A stretch of 64,000 nucleotides of DNA from positions 186,001 to 250,000 of the forward strand of contig BPIL01000001.1 of assembly GCA_026004095.1 (NCBI GenBank). Direction: 5' to 3'. The notes under the pieces are model-generated. The model did no database searches, was not told where the DNA came from, and saw nothing but the letters and a program-made list of their open reading frames with translations. Source of the DNA: Meiothermus sp. GTDB taxonomy: Bacteria; Deinococcota; Deinococci; Deinococcales; Thermaceae. This document shows, piece after piece, positions 4,985 through 52,654 of this stretch (position 1 is its first letter; the number at the start of each line of letters is the position of its first letter). The translations under genes and the position numbers were made by a program.

Positions 4985-5772
4985 GGAAGAGAGGGGGTGG
5001 CGGGCCTTTCAGATGTGGCGTTGAGTACGGCCTGCAGTTCCTCCAGGTCGGCCACGATGTGGTCGGGCTGGGGTGGGGTCTGAGGGTGGGCCGAACCCAC
5101 CCGGCCGTGCTCTTCCAGTTCTTTTTGCAGCCTGGCGGTGATGATGCTGCTGAGGTCGGGCCGCCGGGTGCGCTCGAGCACCGGGGTTTCGCGCCAGTCC
5201 TGGGGCATGTCGCGCCAGATCCAGACCGCTTTCAGGCCGGCGGCGTTGGCCCCCCAGATATCCTGGCTGAGCAGATCGCCGACGTGCACAATCTGTTCTA
5301 CCGGCTCCTCAAAGAGCGGCCTCCAGAAAGCAGGATCGGGCTTGAGGGCCTGCGAGATATCCGGGGCCAGCAGTCGGTCGTAGGCGATGTTAAGCCTATC
5401 TATCAGCACCTGCTGGTACCTAGCCAGGCCATTGGTGGCTACGGCAATTTGATAGCCCTGCTGGCGCAAGGCAGCCAGGCTGGCCGGTACCTCGGGATAA
5501 AGCACCTCCGGCTCGAGCGCCGCCTCGGCGAGCACCTGGGCAATGTTGGGGAAGACCGGCGGAAGCCCCAGTTGCTCCCGCACAGCCCGGTGAATATCGC
5601 CCCAGTCGTACACCTTGGTGGGGTCGCCCTGGGCCAGGCGGCGCAGGTACTCCCTCCGCAGGGCCTGGCGGATGGTGGGCTCTGCCAGCAAAGCCTCCAT
5701 GTGGGGCCGCAGCAGGCGGCGGAAAGGCCAGTCTGCCAGGGTGCCGTCAAAATCGAAGGTAAGCCAGCGCAT
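4981..5772 (-). CDS. HAD-superfamily hydrolase (phosphatase)
   Basis: This 263-residue protein is a haloacid-dehalogenase-fold phosphatase, subfamily I. Motif I is FDFDGTLAD at residues 6-14, with the nucleophile Asp7 and acid/base Asp9. Motif II is VATNGL, and motif IV is VHVGDLLSQDIWGANAAGLKAVWI. The cap domain sits between motifs I and II. The substrate cannot be read from sequence; phosphoglycolate, nucleotides or sugar phosphates are typical. It converges on the DsbA pseudogene and diverges from the trp leader. Confidence 0.88.
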   Translation of the reverse strand: MRWLTFDFDGTLADWPFRRLLRPHMEALLAEPTIRQALRREYLRRLAQGDPTKVYDWGDIHRAVREQLGLPPVFPNIAQVLAEAALEPEVLYPEVPASLAALRQQGYQIAVATNGLARYQQVLIDRLNIAYDRLLAPDISQALKPDPAFWRPLFEEPVEQIVHVGDLLSQDIWGANAAGLKAVWIWRDMPQDWRETPVLERTRRPDLSSIITARLQKELEEHGRVGSAHPQTPPQPDHIVADLEELQAVLNATSERPATPSLP

Positions 5773-40047: not shown

Positions 40048-40494
40048 ATGTACAAACGCATTCTGATTCCCACCGATGGCAGCGCCCCCAGCGAGACCGC
40101 GGTTAAAGCAGGCCTCGAGCTAGCCAAAAGCCTGGGGGCCGAGGCCACCTTGCTGTATGTGGTGGAACCTGTGGTGCCGCGCATCCTGATCGGCCCCGAG
40201 ACCATCCCCTACTACCCCGACCTGACCCGCGACCTCGAGGTGGCCGGCAAGCAGGCCCTCGAGCGGGCCGAGGGCTTCGCCCAGTACCTGGGGGTTCCGG
40301 CCAGGGCCGAACTCAAGCAGGGCAGCGCGGCCCAGGTAATTGTGGAGGAGGCCGCCGCACACGACCTGGTGGTGATGGGTACCCACGGGCGCAGCGGGCT
40401 GGATCGGCTCCTGCTGGGCTCGGTGACGCAGAAGGTGCTGCAGCGCAGCAGCAAGCCGGTGCTGGTGGTGCGTCACCCTGGAGAGGGAGCCTGA
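40048..40494 (+). CDS. Universal stress protein, single domain
   Basis: This 148-residue protein has one universal stress protein domain, MYKRILIPTDGSAPSETAVKAGLELAK to the ATP-binding GTHGRSGLDRLLLGSVTQKV near residues 110-129. GAGGAGGA lies before ATG 40048. It follows the tandem paralogue by 19 bases and its TGA overlaps the ATPase ATG. It is probably the third-from-last element of one stress transcript with the ATPase. Confidence 0.93.
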   Translation: MYKRILIPTDGSAPSETAVKAGLELAKSLGAEATLLYVVEPVVPRILIGPETIPYYPDLTRDLEVAGKQALERAEGFAQYLGVPARAELKQGSAAQVIVEEAAAHDLVVMGTHGRSGLDRLLLGSVTQKVLQRSSKPVLVVRHPGEGA

Positions 40495-42980
40495 TGAACC
40501 GCACGGGGCTCTCCCAACGGGAGGCGGCGGATCGCCTGGCCCGTTACGGCCCCAACACCCTGCCCGAGCAGCCGCCAGAGCCCCTCTGGCGGCGCTTTCT
40601 TCGCCAGTTTAGAAGCCCCCTGATCTATATCCTGCTCTTCGCTTTGCTGGTGGAGCTGGCCCTGTGGTTCTACGAGGGCCGCCAGGGAGCCCCTTTTGAA
40701 GCGCTGGCGATCCTGGTAATCCTGCTCTTCAACGCGGGGCTGGGGGTCTGGCAGGAGCGCCGGGCCGAAAACGCCCTGGCCCGCCTCAGGGCCCTGGCCG
40801 CTCCGCAGGTCTGGGTGCTGCGCGAGGGGGTGCTGGCCCGCGTCCCCAGCCAGCAGTTGGTGCCGGGCGATCTGGTGCGGCTCGAGGCCGGGGAGCGCAT
40901 CCCCGCCGATGGCCTGCTGGTGGAGGGCCAGGGCCTCATGGTAGACGAATCGGTGCTGACCGGTGAAAGCCTACCAGTGGACAAGGGCCTGGGGGAAGAG
41001 GTGTTTTCTGGAACCCTGGCGCTGCGGGGCACCGGCTGGATTGAGCTGACCCGCACCGGCCCCCACAGCGCCATGGGCCGCCTGGCCGAGATGCTGGGCA
41101 GTATCCGGATGGAAAAGACCCCGCTCGAGCGGCGCCTGGATGCCTTCGGTCATCAGGTTGCTCTGTGGGTGGGTCTGCTGGCCCTGGCCTTGCTGATCGG
41201 CATCCTTCTGGTGGAAGGCACCGCCCATTTTTCGAAGGCCTTCCTGTTCACCGTGGCCCTGGCGGTGGCGGCTGTGCCGGAGGGCCTGCCCGCCGTTCTG
41301 ACCCTGGCCCTGGCCCTGGGGGTGGAGCGCATGGCGGGACGCAAGGCTGTGGTAAGGCGGCTTTCGGCGGTGGAAGCCCTGGGCTCGGTCACGGTGATCG
41401 CCACCGACAAAACCGGTACCCTAACCCAGAACCAGATGGAGGTGCGGGCCACCGATCTGCCGGATCCGTGGCGGGGTCATCGGGCCATGGCGCTGGCCTC
41501 CGACGCCGAGCCGGGCAGCCCGGTGGGAGACCCTCTCGAGCTGGCCCTGCTCGAGCACCTCCGCAAAGCCGGAATGGATGTGCAGGCCCTGCGCCAGGCG
41601 CACCCCCGCCTGTCCAGCCGCCCGTTCGATAGCGCCTGGAAGTACATGCGGGTCACGGTGAAAGAGGCCGATCAGGCGGTGAGCTATCTCAAGGGCGCGC
41701 CCGAGGTGCTGCTGGCCCGCTGCCAGCTCGAGCCCCGCGAGCGGGCCTTGTGGCAGGAGAAGATTGAGGCTTACGCCCGCCAAGGCCACCGCTTGCTGGC
41801 CTTTGCCTGGGGGCCAGGGGAAGGGGAAGATCATCTGACCTGGCTCGGACTGGCCCTGCTCTGGGATCCGCCCCGCCCCGAAGTACCAGAGGCCATCCGC
41901 CGCGCCCAGGCTGCGGGCATTCGGGTGCTGATGATCACCGGCGATCACCCGGCCACCGCCCTCGCAGTGGCACAGCAGGTCGGCATTCCGGGCCAGCGGG
42001 TGCTGACCGGTGAAGATATCGAAGGTCACACCCCGGAGGAGCTGCAACAGGCCCTGCGGGAGGTCAACGTGTTTGCTCGAGTCTCCCCCGAGCACAAGCT
42101 GCGCCTGGTTAATCTGCTCAAGGCCCAGGGTGAGATCGTGGCCATGACCGGGGATGGCATCAACGATGCCCCAGCCCTCAAACGGGCCGATGTGGGGGTG
42201 GCGATGGGACAGCGCGGCTCCGATGTGAGCCGCGAGGTGGCCGACCTGGTGCTCCTAGACGACAACTTCGCCACCATCGTGAACGCCGTCGAAGAGGGGC
42301 GTAACATCTACGAGAACATCCGCTCTTTCATCCGCTTCCTCTTTTCCACCAACGTGGCCCTGGTGTTGCTGGTGGCTGGGGGCGTGATTGGGGCGGCTTT
42401 GTTGGGGCTGCGCGATGCCACCGGCGCGCTGCTGGTGCCGCTCACAGCGGTGCAACTGCTATGGATCAACATCATCGCCGATGGGCCGCCGGCCCTGGCG
42501 CTGAGCCTGGATCGGCATCCCGAGGTTATGCGTCGTCCACCCTACGACCCCCGCCAGCCCCTGCTGGATCGGTTCTCTTTGGCCTTTATCCTGGGGACTG
42601 GGGTGGTCAAGGCTGGGCTGGGGCTGGCCTTGCTGGCCCTGCTCCCGCTCTACCAGTTAGCTCCGGTGGCGGTGCGCTCGGCGCTTTTTCTCTACGAGTC
42701 GCTGGCCCAGTTGCTGTTTGCCCAGCCCTCGCGCCTGACCACCAGCCAGCCCTCAAGCAACCCTATTTTGCTGCTGATTCTCCTGGCAAGTGCCGGGGTG
42801 CAGATCCTAACGGTGACGCTGGAGCCCCTGCGGGCTGCGCTGGGACTCGCCCCCCTACCCGGGCCGGCCTGGGGTCTGGTGGGGGCTGCCCTCTTGCTGA
42901 GCTGGGCTTTTGCCATGCTTTTTGTGGTCTGGCTGCGCCGGCACAACAGCGCTCAAATGCAGGCCCATCCGCTGCGATAG
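40494..42980 (+). CDS. P-type cation-transporting ATPase (P2 type)
   Basis: This 828-residue membrane pump has the order M1-M2 (SPLIYILLFALLVELALWF), actuator TGES (VLTGESLPVD), M4 with PEGLP (AAVPEGLPAVLTLALALG), phosphorylated Asp near residue 305 in ATDKTGTLTQNQ, hinge MTGDGINDAPALKRADVGVAMG, and M5-M10. The M6 motif is LLWINIIADGPPALALSLD, keeping the Asn and Asp of Ca-ATPases. It is shorter than typical P2A pumps (about 900), mainly in the nucleotide-binding domain. Calcium or manganese is likely, but the substrate is not certain. Its ATG overlaps the stress-protein stop. Confidence 0.9.
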   Translation: MNRTGLSQREAADRLARYGPNTLPEQPPEPLWRRFLRQFRSPLIYILLFALLVELALWFYEGRQGAPFEALAILVILLFNAGLGVWQERRAENALARLRALAAPQVWVLREGVLARVPSQQLVPGDLVRLEAGERIPADGLLVEGQGLMVDESVLTGESLPVDKGLGEEVFSGTLALRGTGWIELTRTGPHSAMGRLAEMLGSIRMEKTPLERRLDAFGHQVALWVGLLALALLIGILLVEGTAHFSKAFLFTVALAVAAVPEGLPAVLTLALALGVERMAGRKAVVRRLSAVEALGSVTVIATDKTGTLTQNQMEVRATDLPDPWRGHRAMALASDAEPGSPVGDPLELALLEHLRKAGMDVQALRQAHPRLSSRPFDSAWKYMRVTVKEADQAVSYLKGAPEVLLARCQLEPRERALWQEKIEAYARQGHRLLAFAWGPGEGEDHLTWLGLALLWDPPRPEVPEAIRRAQAAGIRVLMITGDHPATALAVAQQVGIPGQRVLTGEDIEGHTPEELQQALREVNVFARVSPEHKLRLVNLLKAQGEIVAMTGDGINDAPALKRADVGVAMGQRGSDVSREVADLVLLDDNFATIVNAVEEGRNIYENIRSFIRFLFSTNVALVLLVAGGVIGAALLGLRDATGALLVPLTAVQLLWINIIADGPPALALSLDRHPEVMRRPPYDPRQPLLDRFSLAFILGTGVVKAGLGLALLALLPLYQLAPVAVRSALFLYESLAQLLFAQPSRLTTSQPSSNPILLLILLASAGVQILTVTLEPLRAALGLAPLPGPAWGLVGAALLLSWAFAMLFVVWLRRHNSAQMQAHPLR

Positions 42981-43003: not shown

Positions 43004-43279
43004 TTAGCCGCGCAGCAGGCGCACGGCCTCCACGATGGCCTTGGTGTCCCCCTGGCCTCTGGCCAGGTCGGCCCGGCACTCTTCCAAGTAGGTTTCAAAG
43101 ATGAGGTCGCCGGTGGCTTCCAGGGCGCTTCGGATGCCAGCCAGCAGCGTTAAGATCTCGCGGCAGTCGCGGTCTTCTTCCACCATCTTTTGCAGGCCCC
43201 GAACCTGTCCCTCCAGCCGCTTGAGCCGGTTCAGGACGCGGGTACGGGCCTCGAGGTCGTGTTTCTTGACAGTGCGCAT
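43004..43279 (-). CDS. CsoR/CstR-family repressor with Cys-Tyr-Cys sensor triad
   Basis: This 91-residue all-helical DUF156 repressor has the family core RVLNRLKRLEGQVRGLQKMV. Its sensor positions are Cys39, Tyr64 and Cys68, at the exact +25 and +29 spacing of CsoR Cys36/His61/Cys65. Replacement of the His by Tyr while keeping both Cys matches persulfide-sensing CstR better than copper-sensing CsoR. ATG 43279 is next to the operator palindrome at 43283-43300, so it likely autoregulates. Two similar palindromes occur in the next 2 kb. Copper or other thiol-reactive ligands remain possible. Confidence 0.85.
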   Translation of the reverse strand: MRTVKKHDLEARTRVLNRLKRLEGQVRGLQKMVEEDRDCREILTLLAGIRSALEATGDLIFETYLEECRADLARGQGDTKAIVEAVRLLRG

Positions 43280-43282
43280 GGC

Positions 43283-43300
43283 GTATCCCCAGGGGGTATC
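43283..43300. promoter_or_regulatory. CsoR/CstR-type operator 1
   Basis: GTATCCCCAGGGGGTATC is a near-perfect palindrome of the TAyCCCCnGGGGrTA form used by CsoR/CstR repressors. It ends 3 bases before the repressor start codon (minus strand), so binding should block its own expression. Confidence 0.7.
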
Positions 43301-43338
43301 GTACCCCAAGGTGCCCGCTCTTTCCAACAGCGGGGTTT

Positions 43339-44151
43339 TTACTCCAGCCTTCGTAAGAGTTGCTCGAGCTGGGCCCGGTTCACCGGCCCCAGGTGGCGGG
43401 CCTGCACCTTTCCATCGGCGCCAATCAGCAAGGTGGTGGGCAGCCCGCTTACCTGGAAGGCCCGCTGCAAGCCGGCGCTGTCCAGGAAAACCCGCGCCGA
43501 AAGCCCGGTCTGGGCCAGGAAGCCCTGGATGGCCCCCACGTCCTCGCCGGTGTTGAGCAGCACGATGGGGTAGCCCTTCTGCTGGTACTCCACCAAAAGG
43601 GGCATCTCGGCCCGGCAGGGGGGGCACCAGGTGGCCCAGAAGTTGAGCAGCATGGGCTTGGGGAGTTCGGCAAAGCGCACTTCCAGGGGGCGGGTTTGGG
43701 CGGGCTCGAGGTACTGCAGCACGCGGCTGGCATACTCGGGCGGGGTAGGGGTCTGGGCCGGCCGGGTCAGGCTAAACTGCACCCCTAGGGGCAGCAAGGC
43801 CAGCGCCAGCGCCGCGCCGCCCGGCACCAAGAGCCGTGGGCTTTCTTGGCGCAAAAGCCAGACCGCGACCAGGGCCCCCACCGGAAGCCCCGCCCACCAG
43901 TTCCAGCCCCCGCTGCGGATGTCCACAATGCCCAGAAAGGCGGCCCCCAGGCTGGGCCAGGTGGAGAGGTGGGCCACCGCATAGCCCATCCGGGCGGCCA
44001 GGAGCGTTGCCAGCAGTACCCACCAGGCTTTGCTTTCCAGGCCCTGCCGGGCGGCCAGCCAGGTAAAGGCCAGAATCCCCACCAGCAGGGCCAGGTTGGG
44101 CCAGCTCAGGGCCAAAGGGCCCAGCAAAAGGGCGTCCGGGGTGAGTTTCAT
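43339..44151 (-). CDS. Membrane-anchored TlpA-type thiol-disulfide oxidoreductase
   Basis: This 270-residue protein has an N-terminal membrane domain of about four helices (LLVGILAFTWLAARQGL, WWVLLATLLAARMGYAVAHL, WWAGLPVGALVAVWLL, GAALALALLPLGVQF). Its pattern (RMGYAV... GGWNWWAGL) recalls Lgt-like membrane domains. Residues about 155-270 form a TlpA/ResA-like thioredoxin domain with the redox motif LLNFWATWCPPCRAEMPLL and the cis-Pro loop SGLPTTLLIG. It would reduce disulfides or metal-site thiols outside the membrane, for example in cytochrome or CuA assembly. It overlaps the 44-codon ORF upstream (ATGA) and lies in front of the CstR-like gene. Confidence 0.85.
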   Translation of the reverse strand: MKLTPDALLLGPLALSWPNLALLVGILAFTWLAARQGLESKAWWVLLATLLAARMGYAVAHLSTWPSLGAAFLGIVDIRSGGWNWWAGLPVGALVAVWLLRQESPRLLVPGGAALALALLPLGVQFSLTRPAQTPTPPEYASRVLQYLEPAQTRPLEVRFAELPKPMLLNFWATWCPPCRAEMPLLVEYQQKGYPIVLLNTGEDVGAIQGFLAQTGLSARVFLDSAGLQRAFQVSGLPTTLLIGADGKVQARHLGPVNRAQLEQLLRRLE

Positions 44152-44282
44152 CGGCTATACACCACCCATCCCAGCGCCAGCAGCGCGACCCAGGGGGCTA
44201 TCCGGCATAGTGAAATTCCACGCAGACGGCAGGCCAGCCCGCTGCGCAGGCGCTCCACCCCAACCCTTATAAAGCGCGTCAT
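44148..44282 (-). CDS. 44-residue membrane mini-protein heading the TlpA operon
   Basis: ATG 44282 opens a 44-codon frame ending at TGA 44148-44150, overlapping the TlpA-like ATG (ATGA). The product has an Arg-rich N-terminus (MTRFIRVGVERLRSG), two Cys (residues 18 and 26) and one helix near the C-terminus (APWVALLALGWVVYSR). It lies 10 bases downstream of a strong TATAAT -10 with a 17-base spacer to TTGCAC, so it is the first gene of the repressor-controlled transcript. I know no family for it. It is too short for most gene finders. Confidence 0.6.
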   Translation of the reverse strand: MTRFIRVGVERLRSGLACRLRGISLCRIAPWVALLALGWVVYSR

Positions 44283-44292
44283 ATCCAGGGCC

Positions 44293-44321
44293 ATTATACC
44301 CCAGGGGGATATAATGTGCAA
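44293..44321 (-). promoter_or_regulatory. Promoter with CsoR/CstR-type operator 2 in the spacer
   Basis: On the minus strand, TTGCAC (44321-44316), a 17-base spacer and TATAAT (44298-44293) make a strong promoter. The spacer is filled by the palindrome TATACCCCAGGGGGATATA (44295-44313), placing the repressor between -35 and -10. Transcription would start about 4 bases before the 44-codon ORF at 44282. Confidence 0.75.
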
Positions 44322-44373
44322 AAGTCGATGAAATTCCCATGCACGAAATACAAAGGTGGCGTGCGCCGCAGAA

Positions 44374-44802
44374 TTACCGCGCTTTGACGGGGGCTTCCAC
44401 TACCAGCGCGCCGCCCCCCTCGAGCCGCAGGGTAATCCGAACGATCTTGCCTTCCTGCAGGGGTTCCTTAAGCATCATCAGCATGATGTGATACCCCCCT
44501 GGTTTGAGCTCGACCTTGCCCCTAGCCGGGATTTCCAGAAACTGAACGGGGCGCATCTGCATAACGTCGGTGCCCCCTGCACCCTTAACGATGGTGGTTT
44601 GGTGGATTTCTACCTTACCGGCGATGGGGCTTTCGGCGGCAATCACCCGAATGGCCCTGTCGCTGGGGTTGGAAAGGGTCATGAAGGCCCCGCTCACCGG
44701 GCCAGGTACCAGGCGAACCCAGGGATTTTCGGCTTTCAGAGAGGTCTGGGCAAAGGCCATCAGGCCTGCCATGCCCAACAAAACCAACAGCGTGCGTCTC
44801 AT
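44374..44802 (-). CDS. PCu(A)C-type periplasmic copper chaperone
   Basis: This 142-residue exported protein starts at ATG 44802 with a signal peptide (MRRTLLVLLGMAGLMAFAQ). The PCuAC copper site H-x(10-11)-M ... H-x-M is present: VEIHQTTIVKGAGGTDVMQM and GGYHIMLMML, ligands near residues 65, 76 and 104-106. Such proteins deliver Cu(I) to the CuA centre of cytochrome oxidase or buffer periplasmic copper. It lies 98 bases after a DUF2946 gene on the same strand, and the two are probably co-expressed. Confidence 0.88.
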   Translation of the reverse strand: MRRTLLVLLGMAGLMAFAQTSLKAENPWVRLVPGPVSGAFMTLSNPSDRAIRVIAAESPIAGKVEIHQTTIVKGAGGTDVMQMRPVQFLEIPARGKVELKPGGYHIMLMMLKEPLQEGKIVRITLRLEGGGALVVEAPVKAR

Positions 44803-44900
44803 ACGTTGCTCCAGCTCGAGGCCGCTATGGCCTCCAAAGAAAGACAGCTTGGGGTCGTGGATGTTTATGCCCATCCTCAGGGGTTTTGTTCGCTACCCAG

Positions 44901-45272
44901 CTAGGCCCACAACGGCGGCCCCCGATAAGGGGTGTGTTCCCAGAAGCCATGTCGGATGTACACCGCTTCCGGTGGTGTGGCTTGTAGCAGCCCTATCTGT
45001 ATACAGGGCCGCACCTCTGTTGCAAAAGCGGTTAATGCTATGGCAAACGCAGCGTTCAGGCAGAGGGGGCAGTGGGGCTGGTGGGTGTGGGTGGGGGAGG
45101 GCTGGGGATGGGTTGAGCCCGCGCTGCAGATGTCCGCGCCCGCTAGAAAGCTAACCGGCAGGGCCTGGCTGCGCGGGTCGCGCAGCGCGTACTGGCTCGA
45201 GACCAGGAACACCAGCCCCGCCAGGAAGAAAACCCAGAGGGTGCGGTGGACTCGAGCCGGAGCCGCCCACAT
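44901..45272 (-). CDS. DUF2946 family protein
   Basis: This 123-residue protein has an N-terminal membrane segment (VHRTLWVFFLAGLVFLVSS) and a Cys/His cluster, THTHQPHCPLCLNAAFA, near residues 65-81, the DUF2946 signature. DUF2946 genes are frequently next to copper-related genes, and a copper-linked role is inferred from that and from the PCuAC gene downstream. ATG 45272 is 10 bases after a minus-strand TATACT (45288-45283). Operator 3 lies about 34-52 bases upstream of that -10, so it may also be under repressor control. Confidence 0.72.
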   Translation of the reverse strand: MWAAPARVHRTLWVFFLAGLVFLVSSQYALRDPRSQALPVSFLAGADICSAGSTHPQPSPTHTHQPHCPLCLNAAFAIALTAFATEVRPCIQIGLLQATPPEAVYIRHGFWEHTPYRGPPLWA

Positions 45273-45321
45273 ACTTGGAACCAGTATATCCGGGCCCCCG
45301 AAGGGCAAACGTCCTGCGACA

Positions 45322-45347
45322 CATATCCCCCAGGGGTATGTTATACT
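45322..45347. promoter_or_regulatory. CsoR/CstR-type operator 3 and trxB promoter
   Basis: CATATCCCCCAGGGGTATG (45322-45340) is the third palindrome of the series, immediately before the plus-strand -10 TATACT (45342-45347). It lies between the divergent DUF2946-PCuAC (minus) and trxB-TDT (plus) units. The trxB start has a leader of about 38 bases with GAGGAG near 45379. Confidence 0.7.
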
Positions 45348-45391
45348 ACCCCATGAAGGGCCGGCCTTAGGCTGGCGCGAGGAGACCAATC

Positions 45392-46330
45392 ATGAGCCAA
45401 CTCTACGACGTGGTGATTATCGGGGGCGGCCCCGCCGGGCTGACCGCAGGCATCTACACCGGACGGGCCAACCTCAAAACCCTCATCCTGGAAAAGGGTC
45501 TGCCGGGGGGCCAGATCGCCCAGACCGAGGAGGTGGAGAACTACCCCGGCTTCCCCGAGCCCATCAGCGGGGCCGAGCTATCCGAACGCATGGTGCAGCA
45601 GGCCAAACGCTTTGGGGCCGAGATTGTGATGGACGAGGCCCAGGCCGTGGAAAAAACCCCGGAGGGTTTCGTGGTGCGGGGTTACGAGCAGGACTACCGC
45701 GCCCGCAGCGTGATTCTCGCCACCGGGGCCAACCCCAAGAAACTGGGCGTACCCGGCGAAGAGAAGTTTTATGGCCGGGGTGTGAGCACCTGCGCCACCT
45801 GTGACGGCTTCTTTTACCGGGGCAAGGAAGTGGTGGTGGTGGGTGGGGGCGACGCCGCGGTGGAGGAGGGTCTGTTCCTCACCAAGTTTGCCTCCAAGGT
45901 CACCCTGGTGCACCGCCGCGACACCCTGCGGGCCAACAAGACCGCCCAGGCCCGGGCCCTGGCCCACCCCAAGATGCAGTTCATCTGGGATACCGTGGTG
46001 GAGGAGGTGCTGGGCGAGGAGACCGTGACCGGGGTGCGCCTCCGAAACCTGAAGAGCGGCGAGGTCTACGACCACCCTACCGACGGGGTCTTTGTTTTCA
46101 TCGGGCATGAGCCCAACACCGGCTTTTTGCAGGGGGTGGTGGAACTCCGGCCCGACGGCTACGTGGCGGTGCGGGACGAGATTTTCACCTCGGTTCCGGG
46201 GCTGTTTGCAGCGGGGGATGTGGCCGACCCCATCTACCGCCAGCTTTCCACCAGCGTGGGGGCCGGCACCCGGGCGGCCATGATGGCCGAGCGCTACCTG
46301 GCCGAGCAGGAACACGCCGCCGTGCACTAG
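45392..46330 (+). CDS. trxB: Thioredoxin-disulfide reductase
   Basis: This 312-residue FAD/NADPH flavoprotein reduces thioredoxin or a thioredoxin-like partner. It has the FAD motif [20 protein letters not shown], the redox disulfide CATC in [15 protein letters not shown] near residues 135-138, the NADPH motif [21 protein letters not shown], and the C-terminal FAD site [16 protein letters not shown] precedes ATG 45392. Operator 3 lies upstream, so it is likely induced by the thiol or metal stress that releases the CstR-like repressor. Confidence 0.92.
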
Positions 46331-46339
46331 GGGGCCCTT

Positions 46340-47410
46340 GTGGAGGCGGCCATCCCAGCAGCGCCCAGCGTGCGCTACCTGAACCCGGCCTGGTTTGCCT
46401 CGGTGATGGGCACGGGGGTGCTGGCCCTGGCCCTGGCCCAGTTTGGCCTGGTGGGGCTGGCCTTGCCGGTTTATGGGCTGGCCCTCTTGTTCATGGCAGG
46501 CTTGCTGGGGCTCTACCTGGCCAAACTCCTGCGCTATCCCCAGGCCGCCCTGGCCGATTTACAGCATCCCCTGTTGTCCCAGATGCTCCCCACGCTACCT
46601 ATTGCCCTTCTGGTGCTGAGCCTGGCGACCCGGGCCCTGCCCCTGGGGCCCTGGGCGCAGCCGTTGGGCCAGGGGCTTTTTCTGCTGGGGACGCCGCTGA
46701 TTTTCCTGGTGGGCCTGCTGGTGGTCTACTGGGTGAGCACCCGGCTTAAGCTGCCCATCGAGGCCGCCAGTGGGGCCTGGTTTATCCCGCCGGTCTCGGC
46801 CCTGCTGGTGCCCATGGCCGGGGGGCTCTGGCTTTCCAGTTTTCCCAAAGCCTGGCAAAAGGAGCTTTGGGTGGTGAGCGGCCTGTTCCTGGGGATTGGG
46901 CTTTTTCTGTTCTTGTTCGTGCTGCCGAGCTTTTTGCAGCGGTTGTACGGGTACGGCCGCCTCGAGCCCCACTTCCTGCCCTCGGTCTTCATCGGGCTGG
47001 CCCCGGTGAGCCTGCTGGCGCTGGCCCCCTGGCGCTGGCTCGAGGGTGGGGTGCGGGCCGGGCTCATCCCGGAGGGCCTGGTGGCGGCCTGGCCGGTGAT
47101 CGGGCTGGCAGTCTGGGGGCTGGGCCTGTGGTGGCTGGCCTTTAGCCTGCTGCTGCTGCTGGATACCCTGCTGGCGCCGTGCCGCCGGGCGCAGTTTTAC
47201 TTTGCCCCCGGCTGGTGGGGGTTTGTCTTCCCCCTGGGGGCTTTTACCCTGGCCACGCTGGCGCTGGCTCGAGCCCTGGACTCGGCCTTCCTGGGCGGGC
47301 TGGCCTGGGGGTTGCTCGGGCTGTTGGGGGTGTTCTGGCTGTGGGTGATGCTCTACTCCTTTAGGGCCTGGGCCGGCCTGGGGGCCTTGCGACCGCCCAA
47401 GGGATCGTAG
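46340..47410 (+). CDS. TDT-family transporter (TehA/SSU1-like sulfite or dicarboxylate exporter)
   Basis: This 356-residue protein has about ten transmembrane helices and the TDT/SLAC1 family features: YLNPAWFASVMGTGVLALALAQ at the start and GWWGFVFPLGAFTLATLALARAL near the C-terminus. Members export tellurite, dicarboxylates, anions or sulfite. Sulfite export would suit the sulfur-linked context (CstR-like operator, Sox operon nearby), but this is inference. GTG 46340 is 9 bases after trxB, so the two are one transcript. Confidence 0.85.
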   Translation: MEAAIPAAPSVRYLNPAWFASVMGTGVLALALAQFGLVGLALPVYGLALLFMAGLLGLYLAKLLRYPQAALADLQHPLLSQMLPTLPIALLVLSLATRALPLGPWAQPLGQGLFLLGTPLIFLVGLLVVYWVSTRLKLPIEAASGAWFIPPVSALLVPMAGGLWLSSFPKAWQKELWVVSGLFLGIGLFLFLFVLPSFLQRLYGYGRLEPHFLPSVFIGLAPVSLLALAPWRWLEGGVRAGLIPEGLVAAWPVIGLAVWGLGLWWLAFSLLLLLDTLLAPCRRAQFYFAPGWWGFVFPLGAFTLATLALARALDSAFLGGLAWGLLGLLGVFWLWVMLYSFRAWAGLGALRPPKGS

Positions 47411-52357: not shown

Positions 52358-52654
52358 TCAGATTATCTTGCGCAGAATCATGGCAATATGGCCTTTGCTC
52401 ATCTCCGTGTCGTCTGCGGCAGCCTGGGCCTCCCAGGCATTCAGGTACTCCTCCAGCACCACGCTGGCGACCGCGTCCATGGCTTTGCGGGTTGCGTTGA
52501 TCTGATCCAGCAGTTCGCTGAAGGGTCGCCCTTCCTCGGCCATCCGCTGCAAGCCCCGCACCTGGCCCTCAATGCGCTTGAGGCGACGGAGGAGGCCTTC
52601 CAGGGCCTCGAGGTCGCTAAAGGTGCCCTCCAGCTTGGGCCGGCTTGGCTTCAT
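52358..52654 (-). CDS. CsoR-family protein without sensor ligands
   Basis: This 98-residue DUF156 protein has the family core LEGLLRRLKRIEGQVRGLQRMAEEGRPFSELLDQINA. The three sensor positions are Phe45, Tyr70 and Trp74 (the +25/+29 spacing is kept), so no Cys or His ligand remains. It probably cannot sense Cu(I) or persulfide in the usual way. GGAGG lies before ATG 52654. It is the last gene of the sox operon, 12 bases after ccdA, and may be a constitutive or partner-dependent regulator. Confidence 0.82.
   Translation of the reverse strand: MKPSRPKLEGTFSDLEALEGLLRRLKRIEGQVRGLQRMAEEGRPFSELLDQINATRKAMDAVASVVLEEYLNAWEAQAAADDTEMSKGHIAMILRKII

Follow-up and report, generated by a model that had tools for sequence, protein, structure and literature searches.

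A candidate persulfide-responsive repressor of the CsoR family, called D, is encoded in a 64,000-nucleotide stretch of DNA (the window) from Meiothermus sp., a bacterium of hot springs; the window corresponds to C1:186001-250000 of a draft genome (G000; 2.77 Mb, 33 contigs, 84% complete). Its gene lies in a group with a tlpA-like gene led by a 44-codon open reading frame (ORF), genes for a PCu(A)C copper-chaperone-family protein and a DUF2946-like protein and, on the other strand, trxB and a TDT/SLAC1-family transporter gene. Three 15-bp palindromes are distributed among these genes, and matching sites occur elsewhere on the same contig (Table 1).

Table 1. Features at the D locus, with the genomic palindrome sites below. 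Coordinates are window positions unless prefixed by C1.
Feature	Coordinates	Strand	Evidence and remarks
CsoR-family repressor D, 91 amino acids; Cys39, Tyr64, Cys68	43004..43279	-	PF02583, alignment, tree
Operator 1, TATCCCCAGGGGGTA	43284..43298	.	upstream of D, 4 bp from its start codon; 0 mismatches to TAYCCCCNGGGGRTA
TlpA/ResA-like thioredoxin-fold protein	43339..44151	-	N-terminal membrane part; profile matches; LGT-like match below cut-off
44-codon ORF	44148..44282	-	stop overlaps tlpA start (ATGA); conserved in relatives; no Pfam match
Sigma-70-type promoter, TTTGCA-18-TATAAT	44293..44322	-	consensus match
Operator 2, TACCCCAGGGGGATA	44297..44311	.	between the -35 and -10 elements of the promoter for the 44-codon ORF and tlpA; 1 mismatch to TAYCCCCNGGGGRTA
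PCu(A)C copper-chaperone-family protein	44374..44874	-	PF04314, 119.8 bits
DUF2946-like protein	44901..45272	-	PF11162 sub-threshold (E 0.0057; 17.8 bits, cut-off 23.7); start assigned to the ATG 51 bp from operator 3; longest ORF 44901-45389
Operator 3, TATCCCCCAGGGGTA	45324..45338	.	divergent region common to trxB and the DUF2946-like gene; 1 mismatch to TAYCCCCNGGGGRTA
trxB, thioredoxin reductase	45392..46330	+	TIGR01292, 395.9 bits, above cut-off
TDT/SLAC1-family transporter	46340..47410	+	PF03595, 188.9 bits; TIGR00816, 149.8 bits, below cut-off 237.25
P-type ATPase, other than HMA-domain type	40494-42980		convergent with D; without the 15-mer
CsoR-family paralogue E	52358..52654	-	PF02583, 67.2 bits; Phe, Tyr, Trp at the three sensor positions; outside the proposed circuit
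TAYCCCNNNGGGRTA site	C1:50068		between a rhodanese gene and the disulfide-oxidoreductase-like/rhodanese/CsoR-B run
TAYCCCNNNGGGRTA sites of the window	C1:229284, 230297, 231324		D, 44-codon ORF-TlpA and trxB (operators 1 to 3)
TAYCCCNNNGGGRTA site	C1:255120		persulfide-dioxygenase-like gene, two rhodaneses, TauE
TAYCCCNNNGGGRTA site inside soxW, before soxY	C1:250159-250173 (L022 5160-5174)		codes VPQGG

Membership of D in the CsoR/RcnR family is given by its match to PF02583 (DUF156; 80.6 bits, cut-off 22.8). No NCBIfam model named D above its cut-off, and the nearest named protein, from Meiothermus taiwanensis, is 98% identical. Copper-sensing CsoR proteins bind the metal through Cys-His-Cys or Cys-His-His. 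In an alignment to CsoR and CstR chains, the Cys, His and Cys of CsoR chain 4m1p, which we take to be its copper ligands, face Cys39, Tyr64 and Cys68 of D. This confirms a first-pass annotation of the DNA, which had noted both Cys and a Tyr at the position of the copper-binding His. D has two conserved Cys at CstR-like spacing and no His. A further hallmark of CstR-type proteins, control of genes for rhodanese, sulfide:quinone oxidoreductase (SQR), persulfide enzymes or sulfite exporters, is indicated for D solely by operators and gene order. D looks like a new sulfur sensor of the CstR/ScCsoR type and not like a copper sensor.

The genome holds six CsoR-family paralogues (A1, A2, B, C, D and E). 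B and D are both Cys-Tyr-Cys at the sensor positions, C has the pattern Cys39/Phe64/Cys68, and A1 and A2 are Cys-His-His and each adjoin a P-type ATPase gene with heavy-metal (HMA) domains. Branch order in the tree of this family (116 rows) is uncertain because its 83 columns leave many forks open (57 of 113 inner branches). D and B fall into a Deinococcota-only branch of 57 rows with a Shimodaira-Hasegawa-like approximate likelihood ratio test (SH-aLRT) support of 84, outside both the Asn-type CstR branch (13 rows, SH-aLRT 91) and the branch of TTHA1953, a repressor of Thermus thermophilus, which includes C and E (8 rows, SH-aLRT 98). All 57 members of the D/B branch have Cys39 and Cys68; at position 64, 53 of them have Tyr and 4 have Phe. 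Orthology of D to TTHA1953 was considered and rejected; it is C, with C39/F64/C68, that groups with the proteins of g5, a sister genus (27 genomes) presumed to be Thermus. The eight g5 orthologue loci that were read carry C39/C68 as in TTHA1953, with Phe at position 64, and 25/27 g5 genomes have two CsoR-family matches; both features underlie the assignment to Thermus. Identity between D and the g5 proteins is 42-45% in the 26 g5 genomes where a match of this kind exists; in the 27th (G070, 65% complete) the best match is only 28%.

That D senses copper, with Tyr64 replacing the His ligand, is very improbable. The family of D and the PCuAC gene across the operator from trxB speak for it. Against it, His occupies the ligand position in none of the 57 D/B branch members, the operators are located at sulfur and thiol genes, and the heavy-metal ATPase genes have Cys-His-His CsoRs of their own. 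Longer G-tract palindromes, which by eye resemble the TtCsoR operator, are present in the A1 and A2 operons, where the 15-mer is absent even with up to two mismatches allowed. D has neither the Cys-His-Cys/His ligands of a copper CsoR nor linkage to a copper ATPase operon. The copper reading was rejected because D has no His at this position, because other CsoRs of the genome are Cys-His-His and because the heavy-metal ATPase genes are without the 15-mer. Copper is at most a secondary link, since the A1/A2 operons are without the 15-mer and the trxB operator has PCuAC only on its far side. Of the persulfide- or copper-stress system proposed at first pass, a coherent thiol/sulfur regulon predicted from sequence stands, and copper as the signal is unsupported. 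TTHA1719 (TtCsoR) has Cys-His-His ligands. It belongs to the same family as D, and the Meiothermus proteins patterned like it are A1 and A2. TTHA1719 is described as a copper sensor with the operator CCCCACCCCACCTGGGGTGGGG (PMC10318464).

All three palindromes are real and lie within 1-2 bases of the positions first given for them, and two deviate at one base from the consensus given with them, TAYCCCCNGGGGRTA. Within the window alone their significance is modest: with up to two mismatches there are 4 matches against a shuffle mean of 1.2, and 4 of 100 shuffles did equally well. The weight of the palindromes thus rests on the genome-wide count and on relatives, not on the window alone. The genome search that had been proposed as a check returned six exact TAYCCCNNNGGGRTA sites in the 2.77-Mb draft, three of them beyond the window on the same contig, and none in the reversed control. 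Because the draft genome is incomplete, six is a minimum count of sites. Every one of them sits at a sulfur or thiol locus. The label "persulfide-dioxygenase-like" for the gene at one of these sites is based on its metallo-beta-lactamase plus rhodanese architecture and on matches of the g5 homologue to 3tp9, human ETHE1 and chains of BpPRF, a persulfide dioxygenase-rhodanese. The soxW-internal site was left out of the core regulon, as its letters spell VPQGG codons; similar letters occur in several species, and the site may be a coding coincidence. A 1-mismatch site at C6:92678, inside the seryl-tRNA synthetase gene, was treated as chance.

A scan for consensus promoters placed the operator within the promoter spacer at three loci, namely tlpA, where TTTGCA at 44322 and TATAAT ending at 44293 enclose 18 nt, as first annotated, the dioxygenase gene (TTGACA-18-TATCCT) and the B run (TTGCGA-17-TATACT). 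The same scan for a spacer-embedded operator found no promoter at trxB or D; by eye, the trxB operator directly precedes a TATAC-type element. This placement relative to promoter elements fits a repressor, and the predicted autoregulation of D is likewise supported by sequence. Thiol reductases, a copper chaperone and a TDT exporter had been named as targets. TrxB, PCuAC and a SLAC1/TDT protein are supported; the exporter model TIGR00816 stays below its cut-off. Likewise, the DUF2946-PCuAC pair said to face trxB is supported for PCuAC, and DUF2946 is only a sub-threshold match. The transporter gene, 9 bp behind trxB, is probably part of the trxB transcript.

Conservation in relatives was scored as the best match in the 200 bp upstream of a gene, with up to one mismatch counted. 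Conservation is highest at the dioxygenase gene, whose site is kept in 21/21 copies from 18 genomes, with 14 perfect sites. The trxB site is kept in 14 of 16 promoters of the genus Meiothermus, and the site of D itself in 9 of 14 loci (12 from the genus Meiothermus, 2 from Calidithermus). Upstream of soxW the count is 0/17, with two mismatches in 8/17. At the tlpA promoter, TTTGC...ATATCCCC..GGGGTATAAT is kept in nine distinct Meiothermus copies, and the upstream flank drifts. Among 18 Meiothermus genomes (g1), the pattern of the first-pass annotation with up to one mismatch occurs 156 times, against 13 in the reversed control.

The same operator also accompanies regulators of the D and B types in named genomes. 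Around such regulators, 43 named Deinococcota loci (494 kb) hold 46 sites with up to one mismatch, 22 of them perfect; each of 20 shuffled sets gave 0-2 sites and the reversed sequence none. In 12/24 loci titled outside the Thermaceae, the 200 bp preceding the regulator contain a site, and the site recurs at D-type regulators in Trueperaceae. Of the Thermaceae loci, 18/19 hold a site, only three of them so close to the regulator, because the operator mostly heads longer runs there. In M. granaticius (L339, G001:C37), one strand carries an SQR-like gene, two tandem operators, the dioxygenase, three rhodanese ORFs, TauE, a disulfide oxidoreductase, a rhodanese and, last, a D-type regulator; the SQR model match is below cut-off, and some of these gene names are BLAST labels from the M. 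granaticius genome. In Calidithermus roseus (L338), the D, tlpA, rhodanese and dioxygenase runs form one cluster with operators.

Six of the 18 g1 genomes (G001, G005, G007, G010, G012 and G015) are without a close D and retain the dioxygenase operator, and three of the four D-less g1 genomes with a trxB orthologue retain the trxB site. Conversely, G017 has D and no B-type match, and it keeps the dioxygenase site and not the trxB site. Since both the D-less genomes and the B-less G017 retain the dioxygenase site, D and B very probably use the same operator.

These observations make it likely that D is a CstR-like dithiol repressor that responds to persulfide (sulfane sulfur) and acts on a dispersed regulon through TAYCCCNNNGGGRTA palindromes, and the persulfide-sensing, CstR-like repressor proposed at first pass is well supported at the sequence level. 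The evidence from sequence covers the residues, the sites, the promoter position at three loci, conservation and the link of D and B to the operator. For binding, signal, chemistry, co-transcription and site sharing by D and B, we infer the following course. Reduced D, probably together with B, would bind the palindromes between or beside promoter elements and block transcription. When per- or polysulfide accumulates, Cys39 and Cys68' of neighbouring protomers would be modified, by persulfide or by a di- or trisulfide bridge, and the modified repressor would release the DNA. The dispersed regulon would then be expressed, comprising the persulfide-dioxygenase-like/rhodanese/TauE, disulfide-oxidoreductase/rhodanese/B, TlpA/D and trxB/TDT runs and, divergently, the DUF2946-like/PCuAC genes.

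By analogy, persulfide is the likeliest signal, because the gene set matches those of known sulfane-sulfur repressors of the CsoR family (ScCsoR, CstR and YrkD). ScCsoR (SCO0620) of S. coelicolor has Cys37/Cys66 and the operator ATACCn6GGTAT, and it represses a persulfide dioxygenase, a rhodanese, a sulfite transporter and itself (PMC7533328). It shares with D its CsoR-like character, a Cys pair 29 residues apart (39/68 in D) and a palindromic ATACC...GGTAT operator. It differs in the spacing, TACC-N6-GGTA (14 bp) against TACC-N7-GGTA (15 bp) in Meiothermus, and in scale, with four genes against dispersed promoters that include trxB and TlpA. CstR of S. aureus and E. faecalis is also a dithiol CsoR-family repressor of sulfurtransferase, SQR and persulfide enzymes (PMC5480029, PMC9405070). 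Unlike D, it has Asn at the His position, both in chain 7mq1 and in the 12 distinct Bacillota sequences that form a separate branch together with this chain. For S. aureus CstR, one directly controlled operon was inferred (PMC5480029). YrkD is a CsoR-family sulfane-sulfur repressor with a similar gene set (PMC9918477).

A number of findings weigh against this assignment. Two of the 16 trxB promoters lack the site. The own site of D is poor in 5 of the 14 loci (2 mismatches in three, 3 in one and 5 in one), and around D of G014 there is no site in 14 kb. Background windows also reach the one-mismatch level, in 12/427 for the dioxygenase, 6/289 for trxB, 12/197 for D and 10/260 for soxW, although these counts are upper bounds because the filter did not remove true sites that were read on the opposite strand. 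Site counts are not independent, as the genomes are related and some named loci belong to the same species as genomes of the set. The soxW match lies within coding sequence. In the 27 g5 genomes the first-pass pattern gives 120 matches with up to one mismatch against 41 in the reversed control. D and B types are missing there, with no g5 match closer than 45% to D, and still, against the expectation that no site would be present, a diverged palindrome, TACCC-N5-GGGTA, stands in 26/26 dioxygenase promoters examined (in the 27th genome, G021, the gene is just a fragment and is outside this count). Another factor can therefore own the position at the dioxygenase promoter. Finally, the Cys pair by itself is no proof of persulfide sensing, because TTHA1953 with the same pair does not respond to NaHS (PMC10318464).

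TTHA1953 of T. thermophilus HB8 is a CsoR-like sox repressor with C39/C68, published in 2023 (PMC10318464). It resembles D in its Thermaceae origin, its Cys39/Cys68 pair, its sulfur genes and its dispersed targets. It differs in its branch, in its consensus, TACNNTACNNNNGTANNGTA, which is without long G-tracts, and in its targets, sox and related genes. The operators of D do not fit this motif as published (PMC10318464). In our genome, no TTHA1953-type site with up to two mismatches was found near the sox genes (L022), and the genome-wide count shows no excess (15, control 16); some other genomes do exceed their control.

An alternative is that paralogue C, of the TTHA1953 type, alone or with D/B, mainly binds the palindromes and that D has another role; we regard this as distinctly unlikely. 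It would account for the g5 genomes, in which a C-type match is present, D/B-type matches are absent and 26/26 dioxygenase promoters carry the related palindrome, and G001, without a close D, does have a C/E-like protein in which the first Cys is kept and Phe takes the place of the second. However, TTHA1953 selects TACNNTACNNNNGTANNGTA and left the C-tract site at TTHA0653/4 unprotected (PMC10318464), the exact site at C is missing in 8/8 g5 loci tested, and the sites adjoin D/B-type genes in both Thermaceae and Trueperaceae. Moreover, the dioxygenase site persists in the Calidithermus genomes G018 and G022, which show no match of the C type. The link of D/B to the operator therefore stands, and sole ownership by them goes further than the evidence.

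In g5, either TTHA1953 or another factor may read TACCC-N5-GGGTA; the diverged palindrome also occurs in 9/27 trxB promoters of g3/g5. A broader reading can be offered tentatively, as a possibility that we do not favour. An old persulfide regulon of the Thermaceae may have an operator position that outlived its regulator. Meiothermus, Calidithermus and Trueperaceae would use the Tyr/Phe-64 CsoR clade (D, B and later copies) with the 15-bp TAYCCCNNNGGGRTA, and Thermus, without this clade, would keep the shifted TACCC-N5-GGGTA for another factor. Meiothermus would run its Cys-switch paralogues in parallel, C perhaps for sox and B plus D for detoxification, in addition to the Cys-less E.

A second alternative concerns the signal. 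D may sense thiol oxidation in general, whether from peroxide, disulfide stress or Cu(II), through an intersubunit disulfide and not persulfide specifically. TTHA1953, with its C39/C68, drops DNA under H2O2 or Cu(II) without reductant and not under NaHS (PMC10318464), and trxB and TlpA are general thiol-repair genes. Nevertheless, no other site is conserved as consistently as that of the dioxygenase, the same run carries rhodaneses and TauE, and in M. granaticius the regulator closes the dioxygenase run itself. General oxidation sensing is accordingly rated unlikely, and persulfide sensing by D is retained as the preferred reading.

The principle of a CsoR-family sulfane-sulfur repressor over dioxygenase and rhodanese genes is already known. 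The first-pass annotation called such a system little described in Thermaceae. With TTHA1953 published in 2023 (PMC10318464), this does not hold in general, and for the D/B clade nothing was found among the matches listed. No paper on this clade or its operator was among the matches listed in the open-access literature on CsoR of Meiothermus/Deinococcus-Thermus and on sulfur oxidation; the accessible part of PMC13019369 mentions CsoR once and TTHA1953 once, both in the reference list. The analysis predicts a genus-wide persulfide-defence regulon with a named operator in thermophiles that also carry sox genes, larger than the first-pass annotation had seen and with its copper part unsupported. 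It separates two Cys-switch CsoR branches in one family, D/B for predicted sulfane-sulfur detoxification and a sox-related branch of the TTHA1953 type. It also draws attention to an operator in Thermus that has no known reader.

Some further features of the paralogues and their neighbourhoods were recorded. The gene for C (L026 7656-7931, C1:7656-7931) lies behind dnaX, is a TTHA1953 orthologue by sequence and has no 15-mer nearby. E, a second CsoR-family gene within the window that the first-pass annotation did not mention, is close to a cytochrome/sox-type cluster and joins the TTHA1953-type branch on a long branch. The C/E-like protein of G001 (L343 229-546, G001:C28) is intermediate between C and E. 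Second D-type copies with an identical core protein are found in M. hypogaeus, M. taiwanensis and Calidithermus chliarophilus (L132, L133 and L134); they adjoin dioxygenase and TlpA/rhodanese genes, which suggests recent transfer of the module. A half-palindrome, TACCCCCAGG(T/C)AGTA, lies 30-34 bp before soxW (L022 5522-5536, C1:250521-250535) and has a 2-mismatch match in 8/17 genomes.

The 44-codon ORF is kept in nine Meiothermus genomes. Longer rhodanese ORFs of Calidithermus (L131, L134), of a second M. hypogaeus module (L132) and of G017 (L098) have an N-terminal anchor that it matches, which suggests that the ORF is a rhodanese gene shortened and retained as a leader of tlpA. In Calidithermus roseus (L131, about 5486-5620), a short ORF precedes the rhodanese and, by eye, has two disulfide-oxidoreductase ends without the middle.

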